Shown: positions 31,271-41,740 of the stretch, piece by piece
Numbering within the stretch: position 1 is the stretch's first letter
How the letters are laid out: each line of letters starts with the position of its first letter
Assembly: GCF_013376455.1 (NCBI RefSeq)
Contig: NZ_CP045504.1
Coordinates: 124,001 to 188,000, forward strand
From: Desulfolutivibrio sulfodismutans DSM 3696
GTDB taxonomy: Bacteria; Desulfobacterota; Desulfovibrionia; Desulfovibrionales; Desulfovibrionaceae
Direction: 5' to 3'
DNA length: 64,000 bases
Position numbers and translations under genes: made by a program
The notes under the pieces: generated by a model
What the model saw: the letters and a program-made list of their open reading frames with translations, nothing else
Told to the model about the DNA's origin: nothing
Database searches by the model: none

Positions 31271-31825
31271 ATGCAGCACATGTCTTTCGTCCCGACCAAG
31301 GCTTTTTTCACCAAGGGCATCGGCCGCCACAAAAACAAGCTCCAGTCGTTCGAGCTGGCCCTGCGTGACGCCGGAATCGAAAAGCTCAACCTCGTCTACG
31401 TGAGCAGCATCTGCCCGCCCAACTGCACGATTCTTCCCCTGGAGGAAGGCGTCAAGCAGTTGAGTCCGGGCCAGATCACCTTTTGCGTCATGGCCCGCAA
31501 CGCCACGGATGAAAAAAACCGCATGGTGGGTTCGGCCGTGGGCATGGCCTTTCCTGCGGACAAAGGCAACTACGGGTACATTTCCGAACACACCACGTTC
31601 GGGGCCGATGAACAGGAAATCGGCGACTTCGCCGAGGACTTGGCCTCCACCATGCTGGCCACCACGCTCGGCATTGATTTCGACCCCGAGACGGCCTACG
31701 ACGAACGCCGCCAGATCTATCTCATGAGCGGCAAGATCGTGGATTCGGCCTCCATGCCCTGCGTCACCACCGGCCAGGCCGGAGTGTGGTCCACCACCAT
31801 CTCCGCCGTGGTCTTTCTGCCCTAG
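31271..31825 (+). CDS. pdaD: pyruvoyl-dependent arginine decarboxylase
   Basis: A 184-residue proenzyme that makes agmatine from arginine, first step of polyamine synthesis. It self-cleaves between two serines to form a pyruvoyl group; the site is seen as LVYVSSICPPNC with Ser45-Ser46. Other family blocks are FFTKGIGRHKNKLQSFELALRDAGI, NATDEKNRMVGSAVGMAFP and YGYISEHTTFG. The ATG at 31271 has TGAGGA upstream; an ATG three codons later is possible. This type occurs in archaea, Chlamydia and deltaproteobacteria instead of the PLP enzyme. It lies between the SPOR gene and nth. Confidence 0.93.
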   Translation: MQHMSFVPTKAFFTKGIGRHKNKLQSFELALRDAGIEKLNLVYVSSICPPNCTILPLEEGVKQLSPGQITFCVMARNATDEKNRMVGSAVGMAFPADKGNYGYISEHTTFGADEQEIGDFAEDLASTMLATTLGIDFDPETAYDERRQIYLMSGKIVDSASMPCVTTGQAGVWSTTISAVVFLP

Positions 31826-31842
31826 GCTTGGTCAGGCGCTGC

Positions 31843-32484
31843 GTGGACAGGCAAGCGCGCGCCACAATCATTCTTGAGCGGTTGCGGCCCCGGTATCCCG
31901 GGGCCGCCTCCGCCCTGACCTGGACAAATCCCTTCGAACTTCTCGTCTCCACGGTGCTGGCCGCCCAGTGCACCGACGCCCGGGTCAATCTGGTGACCCC
32001 GGAATTTTTCCGGCGTTGGCCCGACCCGGCCGCCCTGGCCGCAGCCGATGTGGCCGAGGTGGAGGTCGTGGTCCATTCCACGGGCTTTTTCCGCAACAAG
32101 GCCAAAAATCTTGTCGCCGCCGCGAAAATGATGGTGGCCGAACACGGCGGCGCGGCTCCGCGCACCCTGGCGGAGCTTACGGCCCTGCCGGGACTGGCCC
32201 GCAAGACCGCCAACATCGTGTCCGGGAACGCCTACGGCAACCACGAGGGCATTGCCGTGGACACCCACGTCAAGCGCCTGTCGTACCGCCTGGACCTGAC
32301 GGATTCCGAAAACCCCGTGGTCATCGAAAAAGACCTCATGCCCCTTTTTCCGCGTGAGGCGTGGGGTGAAATCAACCATCTGCTGGTGCTGTTCGGCCGC
32401 GACGTGTGCCAGGCCCGAAAGCCCCGTTGCCAGGACTGTCCCCTGGCCGATGTCTGCCCCCGGAAGGGGCTTCCCCGTTTTTGA
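31843..32484 (+). CDS. nth: endonuclease III
   Basis: A 213-residue base-excision glycosylase/AP lyase. The helix-hairpin-helix LPGLARKTANIVSG contains the catalytic Lys, and VDTHVKRLSYRL contains the catalytic Asp. The [4Fe-4S] cluster loop is complete (C-x6-C-x2-C-x5-C, CQARKPRCQDCPLADVC). I chose GTG at 31843 because it puts the start about ten residues before ILERL as in other Nth proteins; the ribosome site is weak. It begins 17 bases after the decarboxylase stop. A longer start overlapping that gene would add an unlikely His/Arg-rich leader. Confidence 0.9.
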   Translation: MDRQARATIILERLRPRYPGAASALTWTNPFELLVSTVLAAQCTDARVNLVTPEFFRRWPDPAALAAADVAEVEVVVHSTGFFRNKAKNLVAAAKMMVAEHGGAAPRTLAELTALPGLARKTANIVSGNAYGNHEGIAVDTHVKRLSYRLDLTDSENPVVIEKDLMPLFPREAWGEINHLLVLFGRDVCQARKPRCQDCPLADVCPRKGLPRF

Positions 32485-32610
32485 GGCCTGAGCGGATCAC
32501 CGTTTTTCCCGTCCCCGATCTCCCTCCGCGTTTCCCCAGTCTTTGGCGGCCCCCCCGGCTGCCCCGGCCGACCGTTCGCCGTCCCCCGGCCAGGGCCATG
32601 TATTGGCGTA

Positions 32611-32620
32611 GTCTATAGAC
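32611..32620. promoter_or_regulatory. 10-bp perfect palindrome upstream of yedE
   Basis: GTCTATAGAC is a perfect palindrome, about 130 bases upstream of the yedE start. It could be a regulator site or chance. Confidence 0.25.
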
Positions 32621-32648
32621 AGCACTTACGGAGATAGGAACTTTGAAT

Positions 32649-32677
32649 TTGTCCTTGGTTTGTTCCTCTTCTATACA
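32649..32677 (+). promoter_or_regulatory. possible promoter of the yedE operon
   Basis: TTGTCC (32649-32654), 17 bases, TATACA (32672-32677). This is a modest match to sigma-70, 70 bases before the yedE ATG in an AT-richer segment. Confidence 0.4.
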
Positions 32678-32747
32678 ATCGCCAATTACCGTGTGTTGCG
32701 GAGGGGGAATCCCGGCACTGGGAACCGTTAACGTGAGAGGAGCCGCC

Positions 32748-33830
32748 ATGAAGAATTTCTTTTCCTCAAAGCAGGGCATCATCGCCGTGGGCCTTGCCAT
32801 CGGCGTCTTGGCCCCGCTGCTGCAATTCTGGGGCAACCCGGGAAACATGGGCATCTGCGTGGCCTGCTTCGAGCGCGACATGGCAGGGGCCGTGGGCCTG
32901 CACCGGGCGGCCATCGTCCAGTACATGCGCCCGGAGATCATCGGCTTCGTGCTCGGTTCCCTTCTGGCGGCGTTTTTCGCCAAGGACTTCCGTCCCCGGG
33001 CCGGGTCCGCGCCGATTGCCCGGTTCATCCTGGGGGCGTTCGCCATGATCGGGGCATTGGTTTTTCTGGGCTGCCCCTGGCGGGCCATCCTGCGTCTGGC
33101 CGGCGGCGACCTGAGCGCCATTTTCGGCATTCTGGGCCTTGTGGCGGGCATCTGGATCGGAACCATCTTTTTCCGCAAGGGCTACAACCTGGGCCGCAGC
33201 CAAAAAACCCACGCCTCGGTGGGGCTGATCATGCCCCTGGTCATGCTCGGTTTTTTCGCCCTCATGCTGCTGTATCCCCAGATCGATAAAGAGCCCCAGT
33301 CCGGCGTGCTGTTCTACAGCGTCCAAGGCCCTGGTTCCATGCACGCGCCTCTTCTGGCCTCCCTGGCCGTGGGCCTTTTGGTCGGCGTCATCGCCCAGCG
33401 CAGCCGGTTTTGCACCATGGGCGCGTTTCGCGACGTGATCCTTTTCAAGCAGTCCCACCTTCTGCTCGGGGTCATCGCCCTTTTCGTCGCGGCCGTGGTG
33501 GTCAACGCCCTGCTCGGGCAGGTGAAGATCGGCTTCGAGGGCCAGCCCGTGGCCCACACCCAGCAGGTCTGGAACTTCGCCGGGATGCTCCTGGCCGGAC
33601 TGTGCTTCGCCCTGGCCGGGGGATGCCCGGGACGGCAGCTCTTTTTGTCCGGCGAGGGCGACGGCGACGCCGCCGTCTTCGTGTTCGGGATGATCGTTGG
33701 CGCGGGCTTCGCCCACAACTTCGGGCTGGCCAGCTCCCCCCAGGGCGTGGGGCCCCACGGCATCGCCGCCGTGTTCATCGGATTGGCCGTGTGCCTGTAC
33801 TTCGGCCTGACCATGCGCGCCAAGGCATAA
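32748..33830 (+). CDS. yedE: YedE-type putative selenium/sulfur transporter
   Basis: A 360-residue inner-membrane protein with about ten hydrophobic segments. It has the YeeE/YedE features: MGICVACFERDMAGAVGLH near the N-terminus, FLGCPWRAILRLAGGD in the middle, QRSRFCTMGAFRD, and AGGCPGRQLFLSGEGDGDA near the C-terminus. The conserved Cys residues in these blocks match the channel lining of YeeE proteins. Members with this long form are linked to selenium metabolism. It is followed by tusA-like and DUF3343 genes, which supports that link. The ATG at 32748 has GAGAGGAG upstream. Transport of selenium, rather than thiosulfate, is inferred from context. Confidence 0.88.
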   Translation: MKNFFSSKQGIIAVGLAIGVLAPLLQFWGNPGNMGICVACFERDMAGAVGLHRAAIVQYMRPEIIGFVLGSLLAAFFAKDFRPRAGSAPIARFILGAFAMIGALVFLGCPWRAILRLAGGDLSAIFGILGLVAGIWIGTIFFRKGYNLGRSQKTHASVGLIMPLVMLGFFALMLLYPQIDKEPQSGVLFYSVQGPGSMHAPLLASLAVGLLVGVIAQRSRFCTMGAFRDVILFKQSHLLLGVIALFVAAVVVNALLGQVKIGFEGQPVAHTQQVWNFAGMLLAGLCFALAGGCPGRQLFLSGEGDGDAAVFVFGMIVGAGFAHNFGLASSPQGVGPHGIAAVFIGLAVCLYFGLTMRAKA

Positions 33831-33858
33831 GAGGGGCGTGTCAGGGAGGAGGGGAAAA

Positions 33859-33896
33859 GCCTCCGGCGGCCCAGGGGCTTCGCCCTTGGGAATCCC
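33859..33896 (+). repeat. capped-hairpin repeat, copy 3
   Basis: GCCTCCGGCGGCC, a 9-bp stem (33870-33878 with 33882-33890, one G-T pair) with a TTC loop, then GGAATCCC (the last G of the stem overlaps). It lies between yedE and the tusA-like gene. Confidence 0.75.
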
Positions 33897-33987
33897 ATAG
33901 CGGTTGCTGGACATCCTCACGCCGTCTGGTGTTTCGAGAAGAGTCCGTGTTTGCCGGAACAGATGCACGAGGAAAGGAGATCATGCC

Positions 33988-34206
33988 ATGGAAAAGACCA
34001 TAGATGCCAGGGGGCTGTCCTGCCCCCAGCCGGTTTTGGATACGCTTTCGGCCATTGCGGCCATGGGTTCGGGGAAGCTGACCGTTTTGGTCGATACCGA
34101 GGCCTCCAAGGAAAACGTGTCCCGGGCCATCCAGGCCAAGGGCTGGCGGCTTGACGCCGTGGCCGAGGACGGTGGAGAATACCGCCTCGACATCAGCAAG
34201 GGATGA
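33988..34206 (+). CDS. TusA/SirA-family sulfur (selenium) carrier protein
   Basis: A 72-residue protein with the family signature DARGLSCPQPVLDTL, in which Cys of CPxP carries persulfide (or selenide). The rest (LTVLVDTEASKENVSRAIQAKGWRLDAV) has the two-helix layout of YedF/TusA. The ATG at 33988 has AGGAG eight bases upstream. Its stop overlaps the start of the DUF3343 gene (ATGA). Lying after yedE, it is probably the carrier for the transported selenium or sulfur species. Confidence 0.9.
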   Translation: MEKTIDARGLSCPQPVLDTLSAIAAMGSGKLTVLVDTEASKENVSRAIQAKGWRLDAVAEDGGEYRLDISKG

Positions 34207-34763
34207 TTTTGGGATTTCTCGACCGCTTTCGGAAAAAAGACCCCGGCCCGCCGCCCGCATCCAAAGCTGACCGGGGTCTTTTGCTGTTTGAAAACACCAG
34301 CGAGGTCATCAGGGCCGAGAAGGCCCTGCGTGAGGGCGGGTTTGCGGTCAGGGTGGTGGGGCCGCCGCCTGAGGTGCGCACGGGCTGCGATCTGGCCGTG
34401 GAGTTCCCGCTCATCGAGGGCCTGCGCATCCGTCGCAGGCTCGAGGCCGCGAATGTGCCGCCCCTGGACACGATTCCGGTCACCGGCCCCCTTTTGGCCC
34501 CGGTGGACATCTTCCAGGTCAAGGACTTCGGGGCCTATCTCATGGTCCGGGCCGCGAACATGAAACTGACTGTGGAAAAGGCCACCGGCGTCATCGTCAA
34601 CGTCTCGGGCGGCGGCTGCCCGGACGTGCCGTACCTGGCGGCGCGGCTCATCGGCCACAGACTCGACGAGGCCCCCTCGCCGCGCGAGATCGGCCACACC
34701 CTGTGCGGTTACGCCCTGGGGCTGGCTTTCGAGGAAATGAAAGAACAATGCTCGCCGTCGTAG
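34203..34763 (+). CDS. DUF3343-domain protein with a C-terminal extension
   Basis: A 186-residue cytoplasmic protein. Residues about 22-70 (GLLLFENTSEVIRAEKALREG and PPPEVRTGCDLAVEF) match DUF3343, a small domain tied to selenium metabolism that often sits with TusA-like proteins; the RTGCDLAVEF Cys may accept a sulfur or selenium atom. Residues about 85-186 form an extra domain with VDIFQVKDFGAYLMVRAANMKLTVEKATG, VNVSGGGCPDVPYLAARLIG and HTLCGYALGLAFEEM, carrying two further conserved-looking Cys. Most DUF3343 proteins are shorter, so this is a fusion. It overlaps both neighbours, indicating tight coupling. Confidence 0.75.
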   Translation: MILGFLDRFRKKDPGPPPASKADRGLLLFENTSEVIRAEKALREGGFAVRVVGPPPEVRTGCDLAVEFPLIEGLRIRRRLEAANVPPLDTIPVTGPLLAPVDIFQVKDFGAYLMVRAANMKLTVEKATGVIVNVSGGGCPDVPYLAARLIGHRLDEAPSPREIGHTLCGYALGLAFEEMKEQCSPS

Positions 34764-35617
34764 GCACCATCCCCGATCCCGACGTGCCGGTCACCGAAGG
34801 CCTGGCGGATATTTCCAACCAGGGCCTGACCGTGGACGGCCTGCGCGTGGCTCCGGATCGGGGAACCCCGGCCCTTTTGGCGGCGGCCGCCGCAGCCTGC
34901 GCCACCCTCGGGTTGCCCGCGCCCTACGCCTTTCTGGTCGGCGACGAGGGCCTGGGCCACGGCAGCCGCGCCCTGTATCGCCATCTGGCGGACGTCCTGC
35001 CCGGACGGCGGTTTTCCACCCTGGTCTTTCACTATCTCATGCCCGACGTCATGTGGCACGACAAGGTGCTCTTCGCCGTGGAGGCCATGCCCGAGCGCCC
35101 CAGGCTCATTGCCGACGCCGGATTCATGTATGCGGCCAAGATGAGCGGGCAGGCCGCGTCCTACGACCTCTTCACCCCGGACGCCGGGGAACTGGCCTTT
35201 TTGGCCGACGAAACCGCGCCGCATCCCTTCTATACCCGGGGGTTCGTCCTGCATGAGGAAAACCGCGTGCCGGACCTGATCGCCAGGGCCTACCGGGGCG
35301 AGAATGCGGCCACGACGCTTCTGGTCAAGGGCGGCACGGATTATATCGCCGACGCCACAGGGGTGCTTTTCACCGTGGACGGCCCCGGCGAAGAGGCCAT
35401 GGAGGCCATGGGCGGCACCGGCGACACCGTGGCCGGGATGGCTGCGGCGCTCATGGAATCCGGCCGATCCGCGCCCATGGCGGCGTGGTGTGCGGCCAGG
35501 GCCAACCGGCTGGCCGGGAGGCTGGCCCGCCCCAACCCGGGGTCGCGCATCGCCGAGATCATCCCCCACATACCCGAGGCCCTGCGCCAGGCCCTGGCCG
35601 AGGAGCCCGTCCCATGA
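34748..35617 (+). CDS. ribokinase/NAD(P)H-hydrate-dehydratase-like protein
   Basis: A 289-residue protein related to the YjeF C-terminal/ribokinase-like fold. Clues are LLVKGGTDYIAD and AMGGTGDTVAGMAAALMESG; the GTGDTxAG motif is the anion hole and catalytic Asp of that superfamily. AAACATLGLPAPYAFLVGDEG and LIADAGFMYAAKMSG form the earlier core. It starts at the ATG at 34748, overlapping the DUF3343 end, and its stop overlaps the DUF1858 start (ATGA). Its place inside the yedE operon suggests a selenium- or sulfur-linked substrate; true hydrate repair is an alternative. Confidence 0.7.
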   Translation: MLAVVGTIPDPDVPVTEGLADISNQGLTVDGLRVAPDRGTPALLAAAAAACATLGLPAPYAFLVGDEGLGHGSRALYRHLADVLPGRRFSTLVFHYLMPDVMWHDKVLFAVEAMPERPRLIADAGFMYAAKMSGQAASYDLFTPDAGELAFLADETAPHPFYTRGFVLHEENRVPDLIARAYRGENAATTLLVKGGTDYIADATGVLFTVDGPGEEAMEAMGGTGDTVAGMAAALMESGRSAPMAAWCAARANRLAGRLARPNPGSRIAEIIPHIPEALRQALAEEPVP

Positions 35618-35844
35618 GCGCCCGGCGCATCACCGCAGACATGGCCCTTTTGGATGTCGTCGCCGCTCATCCGGCCACGGAGGCGGTCTTCCGTTCCCGT
35701 GATGGGGCGGCCGGGGTATGCCTTTTGTGTACGGCGCTTTTCGACTCCATTGAAGTGGTGGCCACGCGCCATGGGCTCGATCTCGAGGCGCTGCTTGGGG
35801 AGCTTGAGAACGCGGCCGCAGGAGGTTCGGGAAGCACTGGATGA
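35614..35844 (+). CDS. DUF1858-type small protein
   Basis: A 76-residue protein with the DUF1858 outline: ITADMALLDVVAAHPATEAVFRS, then GVCLLCTALFDSIEVVATRHGLDLEALLGEL. In this family a Cys pair (here C-x2-C, CLLC) follows the first helix and has been linked to redox or hybrid-cluster proteins. It starts by ATGA overlap with the kinase-like gene and is the last of the five-gene run. Its function is not established. Confidence 0.75.
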   Translation: MSARRITADMALLDVVAAHPATEAVFRSRDGAAGVCLLCTALFDSIEVVATRHGLDLEALLGELENAAAGGSGSTG

Positions 35845-36097
35845 AGCCGTCTTGAGCGGCGCAGCCGTTTCCCGGCCTAAGCGGTCTGTCGGCCGCGTAG
35901 GCGTCCCGCCTTTCTCCTCCCGGCCTGCTTCATGGCGCCGGCGTTTCCCGTCAAATCCTTATCCCCGGCTGTGGAAAATTCCGAGGTATTCCCCGTAATG
36001 ACGACGGGGGAGGTCTGGCAGGCCTGAGGCGCACCGGCGATTGTTTCATGGCAGGCCGCTGTGCGGGAACGTCGGCTGGGCCTGGGCATGGCGCGCC

Positions 36098-36130
36098 GGG
36101 TCTGGGCCGGGTCTGGGCCGGATATGGGCC
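36098..36130. repeat. 11-bp tandem repeat, three units
   Basis: GGGTCTGGGCC at 36098-36108 and 36109-36119, then the variant GGATATGGGCC at 36120-36130. The period equals about one helical turn. Confidence 0.6.
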
Positions 36131-36183
36131 GGGTCGGGAAAGCCCTGGATCGGAAATCCCGCCGGGGGGCGTGGAAAAATGAA

Positions 36184-36212
36184 TTGTGAGCTATTGCGGG
36201 AAGTTCTATAAG
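36184..36212 (+). promoter_or_regulatory. sigma-70-type promoter of the stress/two-component operon
   Basis: TTGTGA (36184-36189), 17 bases, TATAAG (36207-36212), 60 bases before the universal stress gene. Confidence 0.6.
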
Positions 36213-36271
36213 GATGGTGTAGTCTTGATGAATTCGGCCCGGCCTGTGGGGCCGACTTCGGGAGAAGGCGC

Positions 36272-37156
36272 ATGGACAAGCACTTCCTGGTGACCATAGG
36301 GGATGACCCCGGTATTTTCTACGGCGTCGGCTTCCTCAGCCATTTTTTCGACGCCAAGGATCGGGTGCGGGTGACGCTTTTCCACATCGCCCCCCAGCCT
36401 CCGGCGGTCTGGCCCGAGGAACTGAGCTACGAGACCAAAAAGGCCTTGGAGGACAACGTCGGGCGCCTGGAGGACAAGGGCCGCCTGGCCCTGGCCGCCG
36501 CCCGGGAGCGTTTTTTGGGCTCGGGATTTTTACCGCGCAAGATCGAGGAGAAATTCATCTTCGGGGCCTTCCCCCGGGCCGGGAATCTGGTCATGGAGGG
36601 GGAGTACGGCGACTATGACGCCGTGGTCCTGGGGCAACGCGGTTTCGCGGGCTTAAGCGCCTTCCTGGATCGCGGGGTCGGGGTCGAGATCATGCGCGAA
36701 TCCTTCGACTTTCCCCTGTGGGTCTGCCGCTTCCCGGACTATGGGCGATCCGGGGTGCTGGTCTGCGTGGACGGCTCAAGCGCCGCGCTTCGGGCCGTGG
36801 ACCATGTGGGGAGCATGCTTGAGGGGGAGAACCGGCACGCCGTGACCCTTTTTTATGTCTCGGGACAGGCACAGAAGGGGGCTGCGCAGGCCGTGTTCGC
36901 CCGGGCCCGGGAGGTGCTTGCCGCCAGGGGCGTTGCGCCCGAACGCATCACCGCCCGGCTGGTCGCGTCCGACCATGTGGCCAGGGCCGCGCTTGCCGAG
37001 GCCGAATCCGGGCGGTATGCCGTGGTGGCCGCCGGGCGCACGGGCCAGGGACGGGGGAGCACGCCGCTTGGCGGGCTGTCCCGGGCCTTTTTCGGGTCAA
37101 CCAGCGATGTGTTGTTCCACGAGTTGGCCGGGGCGGTCCTGTGGGTGTGCCGCTGA
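36272..37156 (+). CDS. tandem universal stress protein (two UspA-like domains)
   Basis: A 294-residue cytoplasmic protein with two Usp folds. The first (1-155) starts HFLVTIGDDPGIFYG and ends YDAVVLGQRGFAGLSAFLDRGVGVEIM-PLWVCRF, a degenerate nucleotide-binding end. The second (about 160-294) starts GVLVCVDGSSAALRAVDHVG and ends YAVVAAGRTGQG-GGLSRAFFGSTSDVLFHELAGAVLWVCR, close to the ATP-binding G-x2-G-x9-G-S/T pattern. The ATG at 36272 follows GGGAGAAGG. It is the first gene of a run with two histidine kinases and a response regulator, so it may report energy or stress state. The gap to the first kinase is 37 bases. Confidence 0.85.
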   Translation: MDKHFLVTIGDDPGIFYGVGFLSHFFDAKDRVRVTLFHIAPQPPAVWPEELSYETKKALEDNVGRLEDKGRLALAAARERFLGSGFLPRKIEEKFIFGAFPRAGNLVMEGEYGDYDAVVLGQRGFAGLSAFLDRGVGVEIMRESFDFPLWVCRFPDYGRSGVLVCVDGSSAALRAVDHVGSMLEGENRHAVTLFYVSGQAQKGAAQAVFARAREVLAARGVAPERITARLVASDHVARAALAEAESGRYAVVAAGRTGQGRGSTPLGGLSRAFFGSTSDVLFHELAGAVLWVCR

Positions 37157-37193
37157 CGGGGCGCCCGCACCATGGCAACGGTGTAACGGACGG

Positions 37194-38753
37194 ATGAAGG
37201 TCATGACCACCCCGGACAGACACGAGCAGACTGAATATTGTTTGTGGGACACCTCCGACCGGGAATTCCAGGTAGGCATCATCGGCGCCGGGTCCGGGTT
37301 CATGTCCATTCTGGATATCCTGGGCAACGAGCAATACCAGGAATTTTTGCCGGGCCTGAAACTGACGGCCGTGGCCGATCTCGGACCCCAGCCCGCCAGC
37401 CGGGCCTATGTGGAAAAGCTCGGGGTGCCGATCTACGAAACCTTCCAGGAGATGCTGGCGGCCCACCCCGGCATCGACCTGGTGGTGGAGCTCATCGGTT
37501 CCCGGGCCAAGCTGCGGGCCATCCGTTCGGCCTTGCCGGACACGGTTTCGCTTATCGACCACAATGCGGCCTTTTTCCTGTGCGGCCTGCACAACATGCT
37601 CCAGGTCAGCACCCACTGCCAGGTCAACCTGGACCGGCACAAGGAACTCTTAAACGCCATCATCGACGAGGTGCGCGACGACATCATCCTCCTGGACAAG
37701 GAGGGGCGCGTGGTGGACCTCAATAAAAACGTCTACCAGCGCCTGGGCAAGGAGAAGGCCGAACTTCTGGGGCTGCCCTGCTGGCAGGTGCAGACCCTCG
37801 ACGACGGACGGCCCTTTTGCTGCGGCCAGGACAAGGACTGTCCCTTTTTCTCCACCCTCTCCACCGGCCGCGAGGCCGAGGCCCTGTTTACCCGACTCGA
37901 TGCCGACGGCCGACTCATGTATTTTCGCATCTATGCCTATCCCATCTTCAATCCGCTGGGGAATATGACCCACATCATGGTCATGCGCCGGGACATCACA
38001 CGGCGCACCTACCGGGAACGCCACCAGCAGCACGCCGAAAAGCTGGCGGTCATCGGCGAGATGTCCATGTACCTGGCCCATGAGATCCGAAATCCCCTGT
38101 TCGCCATCTCCGGCTTCACCAAGTCGCTTCTGGACTCGGCGAACCTGGCGGAAAAGGAACGGGAAAAGCTGCGCATCATCGCCGAGGAGGCCAAGCGCCT
38201 GGATCGCATGCTGTCGAGCATTTTAAGCTTCTCGCGCCAGACCCAGACCGTGTCCGGCCCCGTGGACATAAACCGGGTCAGCGAGGAGGCCGTGGAGCTT
38301 ATGCGTATCGGCTATGCCGACAAGGGGTACCGCTTCGTGTTCAATGCCGATCCCAACATCCCGCGCGGCCGGGCCGAGTCCGAGACCATCAAGCAATGTC
38401 TGGTCAACCTGATGCTCAATTCCATGGAGGCCATGCCCGCAGGCGGCGAGATCCGGGTGCGTACGGGCATGGAGGAGGACCGGCCGATGGTCGAGGTGGC
38501 GGATCGCGGCCGGGGCATGAGCCAGGCCGAGATGGACAAGGTCTTTAGCCCCTTCCACACCACCAAGGGCCAGGGGTACGGATTGGGGTTGGCCATGATC
38601 AAAAAGATGATCGAGGAGTTCGGCGGCCAGGTGACCCTGTCCAGCCGGGAGGGGCATGGAACCGCCGTGACCCTGCATTTCGCGCCCATCCTGGCGGGCG
38701 AGGAGGAACGGCAGGCCGTGGACGACCTCAAGGCCCCACGGGACGTCGCCTAG
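37194..38753 (+). CDS. sensor histidine kinase with N-terminal Rossmann domain and Cys-rich PAS
   Basis: A 519-residue soluble kinase. Residues about 25-130 look like a dehydrogenase NAD(P)-binding domain: FQVGIIGAGSGFMSIL (GxGxxG from residue 28 on), LTAVADLG, YETFQEMLAAHPGIDLVVELIG, then VSLIDHNAAFFL. A PAS domain (about 155-265) contains the Cys-rich insert FCCGQDKDCPFF and ends MVMRRDITRR. The H-box is LAHEIRNPLFAISGF with His296; N-box LVNLMLNSMEA; G-boxes DRGRGMS and GYGLGLAMIKKM. No membrane segment is present. It may read NAD(H) state or a metal/redox signal; that is inferred. The start could also be the ATG at 37203. Confidence 0.85.
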   Translation: MKVMTTPDRHEQTEYCLWDTSDREFQVGIIGAGSGFMSILDILGNEQYQEFLPGLKLTAVADLGPQPASRAYVEKLGVPIYETFQEMLAAHPGIDLVVELIGSRAKLRAIRSALPDTVSLIDHNAAFFLCGLHNMLQVSTHCQVNLDRHKELLNAIIDEVRDDIILLDKEGRVVDLNKNVYQRLGKEKAELLGLPCWQVQTLDDGRPFCCGQDKDCPFFSTLSTGREAEALFTRLDADGRLMYFRIYAYPIFNPLGNMTHIMVMRRDITRRTYRERHQQHAEKLAVIGEMSMYLAHEIRNPLFAISGFTKSLLDSANLAEKEREKLRIIAEEAKRLDRMLSSILSFSRQTQTVSGPVDINRVSEEAVELMRIGYADKGYRFVFNADPNIPRGRAESETIKQCLVNLMLNSMEAMPAGGEIRVRTGMEEDRPMVEVADRGRGMSQAEMDKVFSPFHTTKGQGYGLGLAMIKKMIEEFGGQVTLSSREGHGTAVTLHFAPILAGEEERQAVDDLKAPRDVA

Positions 38754-38756
38754 GCC

Positions 38757-40259
38757 ATGTTCGTCCGAAAATCCGTGCCCGGCTCCCTTTCTCCGCGCCT
38801 GTGGAGCCTGCGGGCCCGGCTGATCCTGGTCCTGGGGACGCTTGTGGCCCTCAGCCTGGGGGGGGCGGTCCTGTCTTTGTGGTACGGCCACATGGCCCGC
38901 AACCTGTATCTCTCCACCCTGGAAGGCGACGTGGCCGGTCTGGCGGCGGCCCAGGAGCTGGAAAACGCCCTGCTGGCCCTGTATGCCGAGGCGGCCGGGG
39001 CCAGGAGCCGGGGGACCATGGACGCCGCCGAGGGGCTTGCGGCCGGACGCAGGCGGGTGGAGGAGTGGCTGCGCAAGGCCCGCGATGCGGCAGGCGGCGA
39101 GGCCGCCCGGCAGGGGCTTTCCCAACTGGACGCGTCCTGGTTCGAGGTTCAGGAGGCCATGGACATGGCCTTTGACCGGTCCTCGACCCCCGAGGCCGGT
39201 CTTGAGCTTTTATCCCGGCGTTTCCACGAGGCCTTTTCCCGGGCCGAGGCCTACAAGAGCCTTTTTCGGGAGGGCATTGCGGCCCGGCGCGCCGACTACC
39301 AGGAGCGCACCGACGCCCTGGTGGCCATGGTCTGGATCGCCTTGCCCCTGGTGGCCCTTCTGGGGCTGGCCCTGACGCATCTGGTCTTTTGGCGCATTTT
39401 GAACCCCATCCGCCATCTGGCCCGCACCGGGGCCGGAGCCGACAAGGAGTTGTGCGACGGCAACGAGGTCAAGACCCTGGCCCGGCGTTTCGGCAATCTG
39501 CTTGTGGCCGTGGACCGGGCCGAATCCGATCTGGAGGTGAGCCGGGACCATCTCATGCAGTCGGAAAAGCTGGCCCTGGTGGGCAAGCTGGCTGCCGGGG
39601 TGGCCCATACTATCCGCAATCCCCTGACCTCGGTCAAAATGCGGCTTTTCTCCCTGGAGCGCGTCCTGCGCCTGGAGCCCGCCCAGAAGGAGGACTTCGA
39701 GGTCATTTCGGAAGAGATCCGGCACATCGACACCATCGTGCGCAACTTTCTGGAGTTTTCCCGGCCGCCCAAGCTGGTTTCCCGGCCCACGAGCCTGTCC
39801 GACGTGGTGGACACCACCCTAAATCTCCTCAAGCACAGGTTGGAATCTTACGGGGTGACGGTGGAGGTCTTGCGGGCCAAGCGGCTGACCCCCATCAGCG
39901 CCGACCCCGACCAGCTCAAGGAGGCCCTGGTCAATCTGGTGCTCAACGCCTGCGAGGCCATGGTCGAGGGCGGCCGGATCGTCATTCGCGAGGAGGAGGG
40001 GGTCATGGAGCCGGCCGGGCGGGTGGTGGTGGTGCGCATCAGCGACACCGGGCCGGGGGTGCCGGAATTTATCCGCGACCGGGTGTTTCAGCCCTTTTTC
40101 ACCACCAAGGGCGAAGGCTCCGGCCTGGGACTGCCCATTGCCCAGCGTATCGTGGAGGAGCACGGCGGGTGGATCAACCTGCATTCCCCCGAGGGCCGGG
40201 GGGCCACCTTCGCCTTGATCTTTCCGCACACCGAGGAGCGCACGTGGCACAGATTCTGA
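38757..40259 (+). CDS. membrane sensor histidine kinase
   Basis: A 500-residue kinase. Two membrane segments (LILVLGTLVALSLGGAVLSL about 22-41 and MVWIALPLVALLGLALTHLV about 189-208) enclose a helical periplasmic region of about 145 residues resembling four-helix-bundle sensors. A short HAMP-like linker is followed by the H-box VAHTIRNPLTSVKM with His284, N-box LVNLVLNACEA, and G-boxes DTGPGVP and GSGLGLPIAQRIVEEHGGW. It starts three bases after the previous kinase stop and overlaps the response-regulator gene by 16 bases. The two kinases probably feed the same regulator. Confidence 0.92.
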   Translation: MFVRKSVPGSLSPRLWSLRARLILVLGTLVALSLGGAVLSLWYGHMARNLYLSTLEGDVAGLAAAQELENALLALYAEAAGARSRGTMDAAEGLAAGRRRVEEWLRKARDAAGGEAARQGLSQLDASWFEVQEAMDMAFDRSSTPEAGLELLSRRFHEAFSRAEAYKSLFREGIAARRADYQERTDALVAMVWIALPLVALLGLALTHLVFWRILNPIRHLARTGAGADKELCDGNEVKTLARRFGNLLVAVDRAESDLEVSRDHLMQSEKLALVGKLAAGVAHTIRNPLTSVKMRLFSLERVLRLEPAQKEDFEVISEEIRHIDTIVRNFLEFSRPPKLVSRPTSLSDVVDTTLNLLKHRLESYGVTVEVLRAKRLTPISADPDQLKEALVNLVLNACEAMVEGGRIVIREEEGVMEPAGRVVVVRISDTGPGVPEFIRDRVFQPFFTTKGEGSGLGLPIAQRIVEEHGGWINLHSPEGRGATFALIFPHTEERTWHRF

Positions 40260-41740
40260 TTGTGGACGACGACCACCAGTTGCGCCAGAGCTTCGAGCGC
40301 CTGCTTTCCGCCGAGGGCTACACGGTACGCACGGCCTCAACTGGCGAGGCCGGGGTGGAGATGGTCCGCGAGAGCCTGCCCGATCTGGTGGTCATGGACG
40401 TGCGCATGCCGGGCCTAAGCGGCCTGGAGGCCTTCGCGGCCATGCGCGAGATCGAGCCGAGGCTCCCGGTGATCATCATGACCGCCCACGGCACCACGGA
40501 AACCGCCATCGAGGCCACCCGCATGGGGGCCTTCGACTACGTGCTCAAGCCCTTCGACATCCCCGACATCTTGAAGCTCATCGAAAAGGGCTTAAGCGCC
40601 GGGCGCTTCATGCGCTCCAAGGTGGAGATGGACGCCCCGGCCGAGGGCGGCGAGGGCGAGGCCATCGTGGGCGGCGGCCCGGCCATGCAGGAGGTCTACA
40701 AGGCCATCGGCCGGGCGGCGCCCACCGACGCCACGGTGCTCATCCGGGGCGAGTCCGGCACGGGCAAGGAACTCGTGGCCCGGGCCGTCTACCAATACAG
40801 CTCCCGGGCCGGGAAGCCGTTTTTGGTCATCAACTGCGTGGCCATCCCGGAAACGCTTCTGGAATCGGAACTCTTCGGCTACGAGCGGGGGGCCTTCACC
40901 GGGGCCTCGGGCCGCAAGGTGGGCAAGATCGAACAGGCCAACCGGGGCACGGTCTTTCTGGACGAGATCGGGGACATGCCGGTCTCCATCCAGGCCAAGC
41001 TTTTGCGCCTTTTGCAGGAAAAGCATGTGGAGCGCCTGGGCGGGGCTGGCCCCATCCCCGTGGACGTGCGCATCATCGCCGCCACCAACCGGGATCTGGA
41101 ACAGGCCGTGGCCAAAGGGGCCTTTCGCGAGGATCTGTATTACCGCCTCAAGGTGGTGACCATGACCCTGCCCCCCTTGCGGGAGCGGCGCGAGGACATC
41201 CCGCTTCTGGCCAAACATTTTTTGTGCCGTTTTTCCCGCGAGGCCGGCGTGCCCGATCCGGGGCTGACCCCGCAGGCCTTGGACTTTCTGACCGGGCATG
41301 ACTGGCCGGGAAACGTGCGCGAATTGGCCAATGTCCTGCAAAAAAACCTGATATTCAACCGGGGCGGTCCCATCACCGCCGACGATCTGCAACAGGCCGC
41401 CGGGGTGACGCCCCAGGCGGCGGCCGCCGGGACGGCGACCCCCGCTTTGGAGGCTGGAGGCGACGGCTCGGCCCAGGAATTTCTGCGGCGGTTCGTGCGC
41501 GGGGAGCTGGTGGCGGCCCGGGACGACGAGGGGGCCTTCGAATCGCTCATGGACCGTTTCGGGGCGGTGGTCATTGCCGAGGCTCTGGCCATGACCGGCG
41601 GCAACCGCACCCGGGCGGCCAGACTTCTCGGGCTGTCGCGGCCAACGCTTCTGGCCCGCATCGAAAAATACGGATTGAAAATCGAGACCTCGGTGACCTC
41701 CCAGCTTGGCGCGACCGATCCCGACAGCCCCGGGCGATGA
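40244..41740 (+). CDS. sigma-54-dependent response regulator (NtrC family)
   Basis: A 498-residue regulator with three domains. The receiver (1-120) has VDDD, phospho-acceptor Asp52 in VVMDVRMPG, and the conserved Lys in VLKPFD. The AAA+ domain has [14 protein letters not shown] (216-221, canonical), FLDEIGDMP and FREDLYYRL. The C-terminal Fis-type helix-turn-helix is GGNRTRAARLLGLSRPTLLARIEKYG. The GTG at 40244 has GAGGAG five bases upstream and overlaps the kinase gene. It should activate sigma-54 promoters in response to the two upstream kinases. Its target genes are not evident in this window. Confidence 0.94.
   Translation: MAQILIVDDDHQLRQSFERLLSAEGYTVRTASTGEAGVEMVRESLPDLVVMDVRMPGLSGLEAFAAMREIEPRLPVIIMTAHGTTETAIEATRMGAFDYVLKPFDIPDILKLIEKGLSAGRFMRSKVEMDAPAEGGEGEAIVGGGPAMQEVYKAIGRAAPTDATVLIRGESGTGKELVARAVYQYSSRAGKPFLVINCVAIPETLLESELFGYERGAFTGASGRKVGKIEQANRGTVFLDEIGDMPVSIQAKLLRLLQEKHVERLGGAGPIPVDVRIIAATNRDLEQAVAKGAFREDLYYRLKVVTMTLPPLRERREDIPLLAKHFLCRFSREAGVPDPGLTPQALDFLTGHDWPGNVRELANVLQKNLIFNRGGPITADDLQQAAGVTPQAAAAGTATPALEAGGDGSAQEFLRRFVRGELVAARDDEGAFESLMDRFGAVVIAEALAMTGGNRTRAARLLGLSRPTLLARIEKYGLKIETSVTSQLGATDPDSPGR

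Follow-up and report, generated by a model that had tools for sequence, protein, structure and literature searches.

YedE and DUF3343 are published candidates for the selenium trait (PMC5322559), and a study on Methanococcus maripaludis states that no organism is known to possess a dedicated selenium transporter (PMC11097638). The question is how selenium enters the bacterial cell and arrives at selenophosphate synthetase (SelD) without sulfur crowding it out. In sulfur-disproportionating and sulfide-oxidizing bacteria a five-gene cluster named YTD (yedE-tusA-dsrE-chp1-chp2) has been described (PMC8780430, PMC9751629, PMC13293266, PMC12998232, PMC8528874, PMC13047784), the genes 3–5 of which were identified as DsrEFH type II or DsrEFH-like (PMC13293266, PMC13047784). 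Here we describe an operon that bears on the selenium question, located at positions 32748–35844 of a 64,000 nucleotide (nt) stretch (C1:124001–188000, in the following called the window) of the two-contig, 4.44-Mb genome of Desulfolutivibrio sulfodismutans DSM 3696. It consists of five open reading frames (ORFs):

32748–33830, + strand: yedE, a membrane protein and putative selenium importer of 360 amino acids (aa) (TIGR04112 and PF04143)
33988–34206, + strand: tusA-like gene, a single-domain sulfur/selenium carrier of 72 aa with a CPQP motif (PF01206)
34203–34763, + strand: extended DUF3343 protein (DUF3343x in the following) of 186 aa, with a Se_S_carrier domain at residues 25–89 (Cys62) and a C-terminal domain at about 98–186 (Cys139, Cys168, Cys183) (PF11823, invariant columns, structure model)
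34748–35617, + strand: kinase-like gene, a ribokinase-fold protein of 289 aa (PF01256, model fold, invariant motifs)
35614–35844, + strand: DUF1858-like gene, optional, a small CxxC protein (CLLC) of 76 aa (TIGR03980 and PF08984, both below cut-off)

This operon had been proposed in an initial annotation made from the sequence alone, and all its ORFs and junctions were confirmed: 4-nt ATGA overlaps at 34203 and 35614, and a 16-nt overlap at 34748–34763. The spacing between yedE and tusA is 157 nt. YedE reaches 488.5 bits with TIGR04112 (seleno_YedE), passing the equivalog cut-off of 200, and 57.2 bits with PF04143 (cut-off 27). The TusA-like protein, the CPQP of which agrees with the CPxP motif, scores 66.7 bits with PF01206 (cut-off 28.6), but 53 bits with the YedF model TIGR03527 (cut-off 110), of which it has the TusA part only. 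DUF3343x has 75.6 bits with PF11823 (Se_S_carrier, cut-off 25) and the kinase-like protein 44.1 bits with PF01256 (Carb_kinase, cut-off 27). The fifth protein stays below both of its cut-offs (18.3 against 32.2 bits for PF08984, DUF1858; 30.7 against 44.95 bits for TIGR03980, prismane_assoc), and its name is less secure than the other four. A scan of 32480–36280 gave one promoter-like (0.5 expected) and four terminator-like signals (3.7 expected), about the level of chance, and no tRNA was found in the window.

With the YedE/YedF (SirA-like)/DUF3343 set of PMC5322559 the operon shares YedE, a TusA/SirA-type protein and DUF3343, as well as, in related loci, the vicinity of selD, YedF, SelB and a selenium-associated LysR regulator. 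It differs in that TusA is encoded by a separate gene and is not YedF, that DUF3343 has two domains and that the operon regularly includes a ribokinase-fold gene. Neither this gene nor the second domain of DUF3343 was seen among the four candidates in the available part of that source, and the open-access literature yielded no link of either to selenium, subscription papers and preprints lying mostly outside this scope. Known selenium-trait families are here joined by a conserved kinase and its partner domain, a combination that we did not find described, and the operon adds these two proteins, the kinase and the carrier-linked domain, to the selenium candidates. The YeeE/YeeD-type thiosulfate uptake pair (PMC13047784) likewise combines a YedE-family channel with a TusA-family protein. 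However, on thiosulfate-transporter models the YedE of the operon reaches at most 46.3 bits (cut-offs 400 and 645), and the additional carrier, kinase and DUF1858 genes set the operon apart.

We propose, with a probability of roughly 0.6, that the operon serves the uptake and delivery of selenium and feeds SelD. The gene set was followed in 199 genomes of the order and 297 genomes of the phylum. In the order, the kinase protein gave 97 matches at E ≤ 1e-5, 96 of them strong (E ≤ 2e-59); a marginal match in one genome (G127) was left out of the kinase counts. YedE was found above the seleno_YedE cut-off in 104 of the 199 genomes. Both proteins occur together in 95 genomes, the kinase alone in one (G111), YedE alone in nine and neither in 94 (Fisher p ~7e-45, the genomes not being independent). 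They share a contig in 90 genomes, with a gap of at most 1324 nt in all 90, and lie on separate contigs in five. In 30 loci of the order, own genome included, TusA, DUF3343x and the kinase follow each other in this order without exception; YedE is present in 29 of them, the remaining locus (L006) starting at TusA, and the DUF1858-like gene in 20.

A collection was furthermore scanned with the kinase alignment, and the best 80 of at least 377 relatives (the 80 loci) were taken for comparison. Their record titles name Desulfobacterota-type groups, Nitrospirae, Bacillota/Clostridia and SAR324. Neighbours of the kinase are DUF3343x in 79, TusA in 75 and YedE in 73 of these loci; among the seven lacking YedE, six start not more than 240 nt from the locus end and the seventh is L106, discussed below. 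A DUF1858-like gene directly follows the kinase in 36 of the 80 loci, 75 of which had at least 300 nt of downstream sequence. By these locus and genome counts, the kinase regularly belongs to operons of this type and the DUF1858-like gene is optional; the first four genes form a conserved unit. The initial annotation had taken both genes for non-standard members, but the kinase is close to constant in this operon type, with 95 of the 104 YedE genomes of the order having it. It had also named conserved linkage in related genomes and a selD in the own genome as tests of its proposal. The linkage was found, and selD is present at C1:238403–239329 (339.3 bits, SelD cut-off 125; one in-frame TGA), as is selA (602.9 bits, cut-off 267.9).

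With the own SelD as tblastn query, selD was detected near the operon in 28 of the 80 loci, in the downstream flank of 22 and in the upstream flank of six; 16 of the 28 are same-strand genes at most 1.5 kb downstream. We estimate that a random gene present in a single copy would fall into flanks of this kind in well below one locus out of 80. Distances between kinase and selD of 24 nt (L102, L108), 27 nt (L061), 40 nt (L101, Bacillota title) and 95 nt (L087, Nitrospirae title) occur, and the selD-adjacent operons span records with Desulfobacterota-type, Nitrospirae and Bacillota titles. At least nine genomes of the phylum sample carry selD no more than 100 nt away from the kinase. On the kinase tree, a quick build with many unresolved forks in which 'Myxococcota' stands for records titled 'Deltaproteobacteria bacterium', the selD-adjacent state requires a minimum of 15 changes (66 loci with a usable label, still not independent of each other). 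The flanking ORFs of the 80 loci were also clustered and one representative per recurrent cluster was scanned against curated models. Above their cut-offs were the representatives of SelD (364.1 bits, 28 loci), YedF (222.1 bits, 13 loci), the selenium-associated LysR regulator NF040786 (279 bits, six loci) and SelB (291.3 bits, four loci), neighbours which match the published selenium-trait set (PMC5322559). The selenium link claimed in the initial annotation is thus upheld by a YedE well above the seleno_YedE cut-off, by selD and selA in the genome and by selD adjacency in several groups; its interpretation as a whole is partly supported, the chemical modification step that it suggested being a hypothesis.

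The C-terminal domain of DUF3343x is inherited together with the kinase. With this domain alone as query, 75 of the 297 phylum genomes gave a match, and the kinase was found in 75 as well. Both are present in 74 genomes and each occurs alone in one (p ~4e-68, again with genomes that are not independent); the two unpaired cases are G391, with a partial kinase match, and G303, in which the C-terminal domain is broken. Of the 74 paired genomes, 68 have the two overlapping or at most 100 nt apart, with overlapping matches in 34, and the largest distance is 1092 nt (G354). This suggests that the kinase and the C-terminal domain probably function as one unit, and the simplest reading of their co-inheritance would be that the domain works with, or is acted on by, the kinase.

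For DUF3343x, alignments of 76 and 28 rows were made from the window protein and 75 or 27, respectively, of 106 relatives, hand-picked for spread. Cys62 in the carrier domain and Cys139 and Cys168 in the C-terminal domain are invariant over the 76 sequences. Cys183 is invariant in the 28-row and a 29-row alignment, but not in the 76-row alignment. The extra Cys-containing domain seen in the initial annotation is therefore conserved in Cys139 and Cys168 and mostly so in Cys183, and it lacks a convincing curated match: in Pfam and NCBIfam the best hit among the 76 members was FKBP26_IF (E 0.0006, in 35 of 76). In the structure model (mean predicted local distance difference test score, pLDDT, 89.3) residues ~20–96 align with small ferredoxin-like domains (EscJ, YebC, UreE, a heavy-metal-binding protein, PII proteins; Z 5.6–7.8). 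Residues ~105–186 align with IscU (5wkp_D, Z 6.6, root mean square deviation (rmsd) 2.4 over 72 residues; 1wfz, Z 6.1), below the caution line of Z 8 and alongside unrelated folds, and the same stretch also matches a domain of dihydrolipoamide dehydrogenase (6cmz_A) at Z 7.2, equally below that line.

The IscU matches give no more than a structural hint of an IscU-like origin of the C-terminal domain. An origin from IscU/NifU_N found no support at the profile level: hhalign returned a probability of 2.3 against 29 NifU_N sequences and 1.4 for the reversed control, and of local, global and low-threshold settings none rose above that control (29 of 30 sequences were kept, the stretch of L163 being off-frame). 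PF01592 (NifU_N) had no hit in the 76 members. A second candidate, TIGR03905, occurred in just two of 39 genomes, which did not suffice to build a profile. Searched against solved structures, the profile of the domain gave nothing below E 1. Among the 50 structural matches listed for the DUF3343x model no entry has a DsrE fold, and Foldseek gave nothing at E 0.001, absences which prove nothing. For PF11823 itself, a wide distribution has been described that includes genomes with SelD as well as genomes lacking it (PMC5322559).

The kinase-like protein was modelled with high confidence (pLDDT 93.2, predicted template modelling score 0.92) in a ribokinase-like fold. The 50 structural matches listed, to ribokinase-like enzymes, have Z 17.5–20.9 over 211–242 residues; among them are NAD(P)H-hydrate dehydratase 3rss_A (Z 20.9, rmsd 3.0, 227 residues), pyridoxal kinase 4c5n_C (Z 19.8), pseudouridine kinase 7vkp (Z 19.0) and ThiD 1ub0 (Z 18.7). 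Such closely spaced scores do not single out a substrate. In an alignment of 80 sequences (the window protein and 79 of 110 relatives, hand-picked for spread) TPDxGE and GGTGD (Gly222–Asp226, the GxGD segment) are invariant. We take these to be the metal/phosphate and catalytic motifs of the ribokinase-like superfamily, with the Asp of GxGD as the catalytic residue. The alignment also shows long invariant segments specific to this family. Residues 157–166 are invariant or nearly so, yet they fall within the stretch modelled with the lowest confidence (mean pLDDT 51 for the block 161–170), as would be expected of a lid or docking loop. Near kinase and selD, an ORF for a HAD-like phosphatase (L075:5439–5903) recurs in eight of the 80 loci, with scores below the cut-offs; such a pairing of phosphatase and kinase within a selenium locus could have a bearing on the substrate.

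From the gene content, the conservation of the unit, its linkage to selD, the presence of selD and selA, the co-inheritance and the kinase motifs, the following mechanism is most likely, its transfer steps being inferred. YedE would carry a selenium species across the membrane, and the cysteine of the TusA-like CPxP motif would accept the selenium on the cytosolic side. It would then move to Cys62 in the carrier domain of DUF3343x and onward to SelD. The C-terminal domain, with Cys139, Cys168 and Cys183, may together with the kinase perform an ATP-dependent step on carrier-bound selenium or on a small-molecule acceptor, perhaps for selectivity or to produce that acceptor. Where present, the DUF1858-like CxxC protein may provide reducing equivalents. 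A more specific version is tentative and, as it stands, rather unlikely: kinase and C-terminal domain might constitute an ATP-driven, selenium-specific step that is absent from current schemes, either proofreading selenium against a vast excess of sulfide, or with the kinase making a dedicated small-molecule selenium carrier for SelD. The operon offers a small and conserved group of components, open to testing, in lineages in which sulfate reducers abound and sulfide can be present in great excess.

Several observations weigh against selenium delivery as the function of the operon. In the own genome selD is located ~79 kb away from it, and the flanks of 52 of the 80 loci, many of them short, gave no selD. 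Furthermore, SelD is near-universal (180 of 199 order and 265 of 297 phylum genomes), which makes co-occurrence with it a weak argument; it was therefore set aside as the chief one, and adjacency was used in its place. In the order, SelD is above cut-off in 93 of 96 kinase genomes versus 87 of 103 others (p=0.003), in the phylum in 71 of 75 versus 194 of 222 (p=0.09). In favour of the selenium reading, selA is present in each of the seven genomes that have the kinase but gave no SelD hit (G068, G019, G075, G290, G307, G357, G463), and an assembly gap is therefore likely there. Four genomes negative for both kinase and SelD were examined for comparison: selA was found in G056 and not in G133, G136 and G189. 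Unfavourable are also two exceptions to the gene set. G111 has a partial kinase match and SelD, but neither a YedE match nor SelA, and L106, among the 80 loci, has a kinase without yedE, tusA or DUF3343x. The latter kinase (L106:4543–5415) belongs to a metagenome-assembled genome of Desulfatirhabdium, and its neighbours, by reading, do not resemble selenium genes; it may represent another setting or a broken operon. Finally, deletion of yedE in M. maripaludis caused no clear selenium phenotype (PMC11097638). The same study reports its transcript to be up 5.28 log2-fold upon selenium depletion, and the selenium role suggested for YedE itself rests on genome context. The kinase step is one that we infer, and selenium carriage by the putative carriers is likewise read from the genomic surroundings.

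If the operon does not deliver selenium, it might relay sulfur in dissimilatory metabolism, as a YTD variant that passes sulfane sulfur on to the Dsr system, or takes it over from there, in sulfur oxidation or disproportionation. Both have yedE and tusA in front and five genes in a row, and the operon, too, occurs in sulfate reducers and their relatives. However, common to both are the first two gene families only. Genes 3–5 are here PF11823 with a new domain, a ribokinase fold and a DUF1858-like protein, as opposed to the DsrEFH type II described in PMC13293266 and PMC13047784, and no DsrE family is among the Pfam matches of these three genes at E ≤ 1. In addition, YedE scores as seleno_YedE and the neighbours are selD, YedF, the selenium LysR and SelB. 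We consider a sulfur relay of this kind unlikely. Membership of the operon in YTD was rejected since genes 3–5 differ, the distinction being drawn from published description and not from a comparison of proteins or from a search of the own genome for YTD genes. Because the first two families are common to both, scoring yedE and tusA alone would confuse the two, and a yedE-tusA start by itself should not lead to this operon being counted as a YTD sulfur cluster.

Other alternatives concern the kinase. It might act in metabolite repair or cofactor synthesis, as a kinase of the NAD(P)H-hydrate dehydratase, thiazole, hydroxymethylpyrimidine or pyridoxal type that is merely co-regulated with selenium genes. 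This would agree with its top structural matches and with the fact that all 80 members match TIGR00196 at E ≤ 0.01. With NAD(P)H-hydrate dehydratase (PF01256, TIGR00196; for instance TM0922) it shares the ribokinase-like fold and the C-terminal half with the GxGD segment. It differs by its place in a selenium operon, by its own invariant segments and by a score of 40.1 bits with TIGR00196, far below the cut-off of 129.85, whereas a second PF01256 protein of the genome, in a frame of 647 aa, reaches 184.7 bits. A canonical NAD(P)H-hydrate dehydratase was rejected on the basis of these two scores, which lead us to regard the kinase as a putative paralogue of that family with a separate role. The tight pairing with one carrier-linked domain also speaks against mere co-regulation, which we judge to be as improbable as the sulfur relay. 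Alternatively, the ribokinase fold could be a non-catalytic scaffold or sensor, binding the carrier and gating the flow of selenium, for example via nucleotide sensing. Co-inheritance with one domain and the invariant low-confidence loop at 157–166, possibly a docking loop, would fit such a role, but TPDxGE and GGTGD, with the roles assumed above, are retained throughout the 80 sequences, and in a pure scaffold the loss of both would be expected; this possibility seems to us quite improbable. Selenium delivery with participation of the kinase is thus the reading that we prefer.

The genes around the operon were also inspected. Upstream are a pyruvoyl-dependent arginine decarboxylase (31271–31825, + strand; PF01862, 188.4 bits) and, in an overlapping ORF, an endonuclease III-like protein (31786–32484, + strand; PF00730, 81.1 bits), neither of which is an evident selenium gene. 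Downstream, at 36272–40259 on the + strand, a universal stress protein (PF00582) is followed by two consecutive histidine kinases, after which comes a sigma-54-type response regulator that, by reading, ends at 41740. The histidine kinase at 37194–38753 (+ strand) has HisKA, HATPase_c and PAS_9 domains; the first 150 residues of the product look by reading like a Rossmann NAD(P)-binding region (GIIGAGSGF), with no Pfam hit at E 0.001.

In six of the 80 loci a double-cubane-cluster-containing anaerobic reductase (L082:1138–2412; NF040772, 474 bits, cut-off 350) is found near the operon. STRING neighbours of DUF3343 and YedF are described to include 2-hydroxyglutaryl-CoA dehydratase and activase genes (PMC5322559), and in four loci an ORF resembling a CoA activase accompanies the surroundings of the operon, together with the double-cubane reductase cluster.

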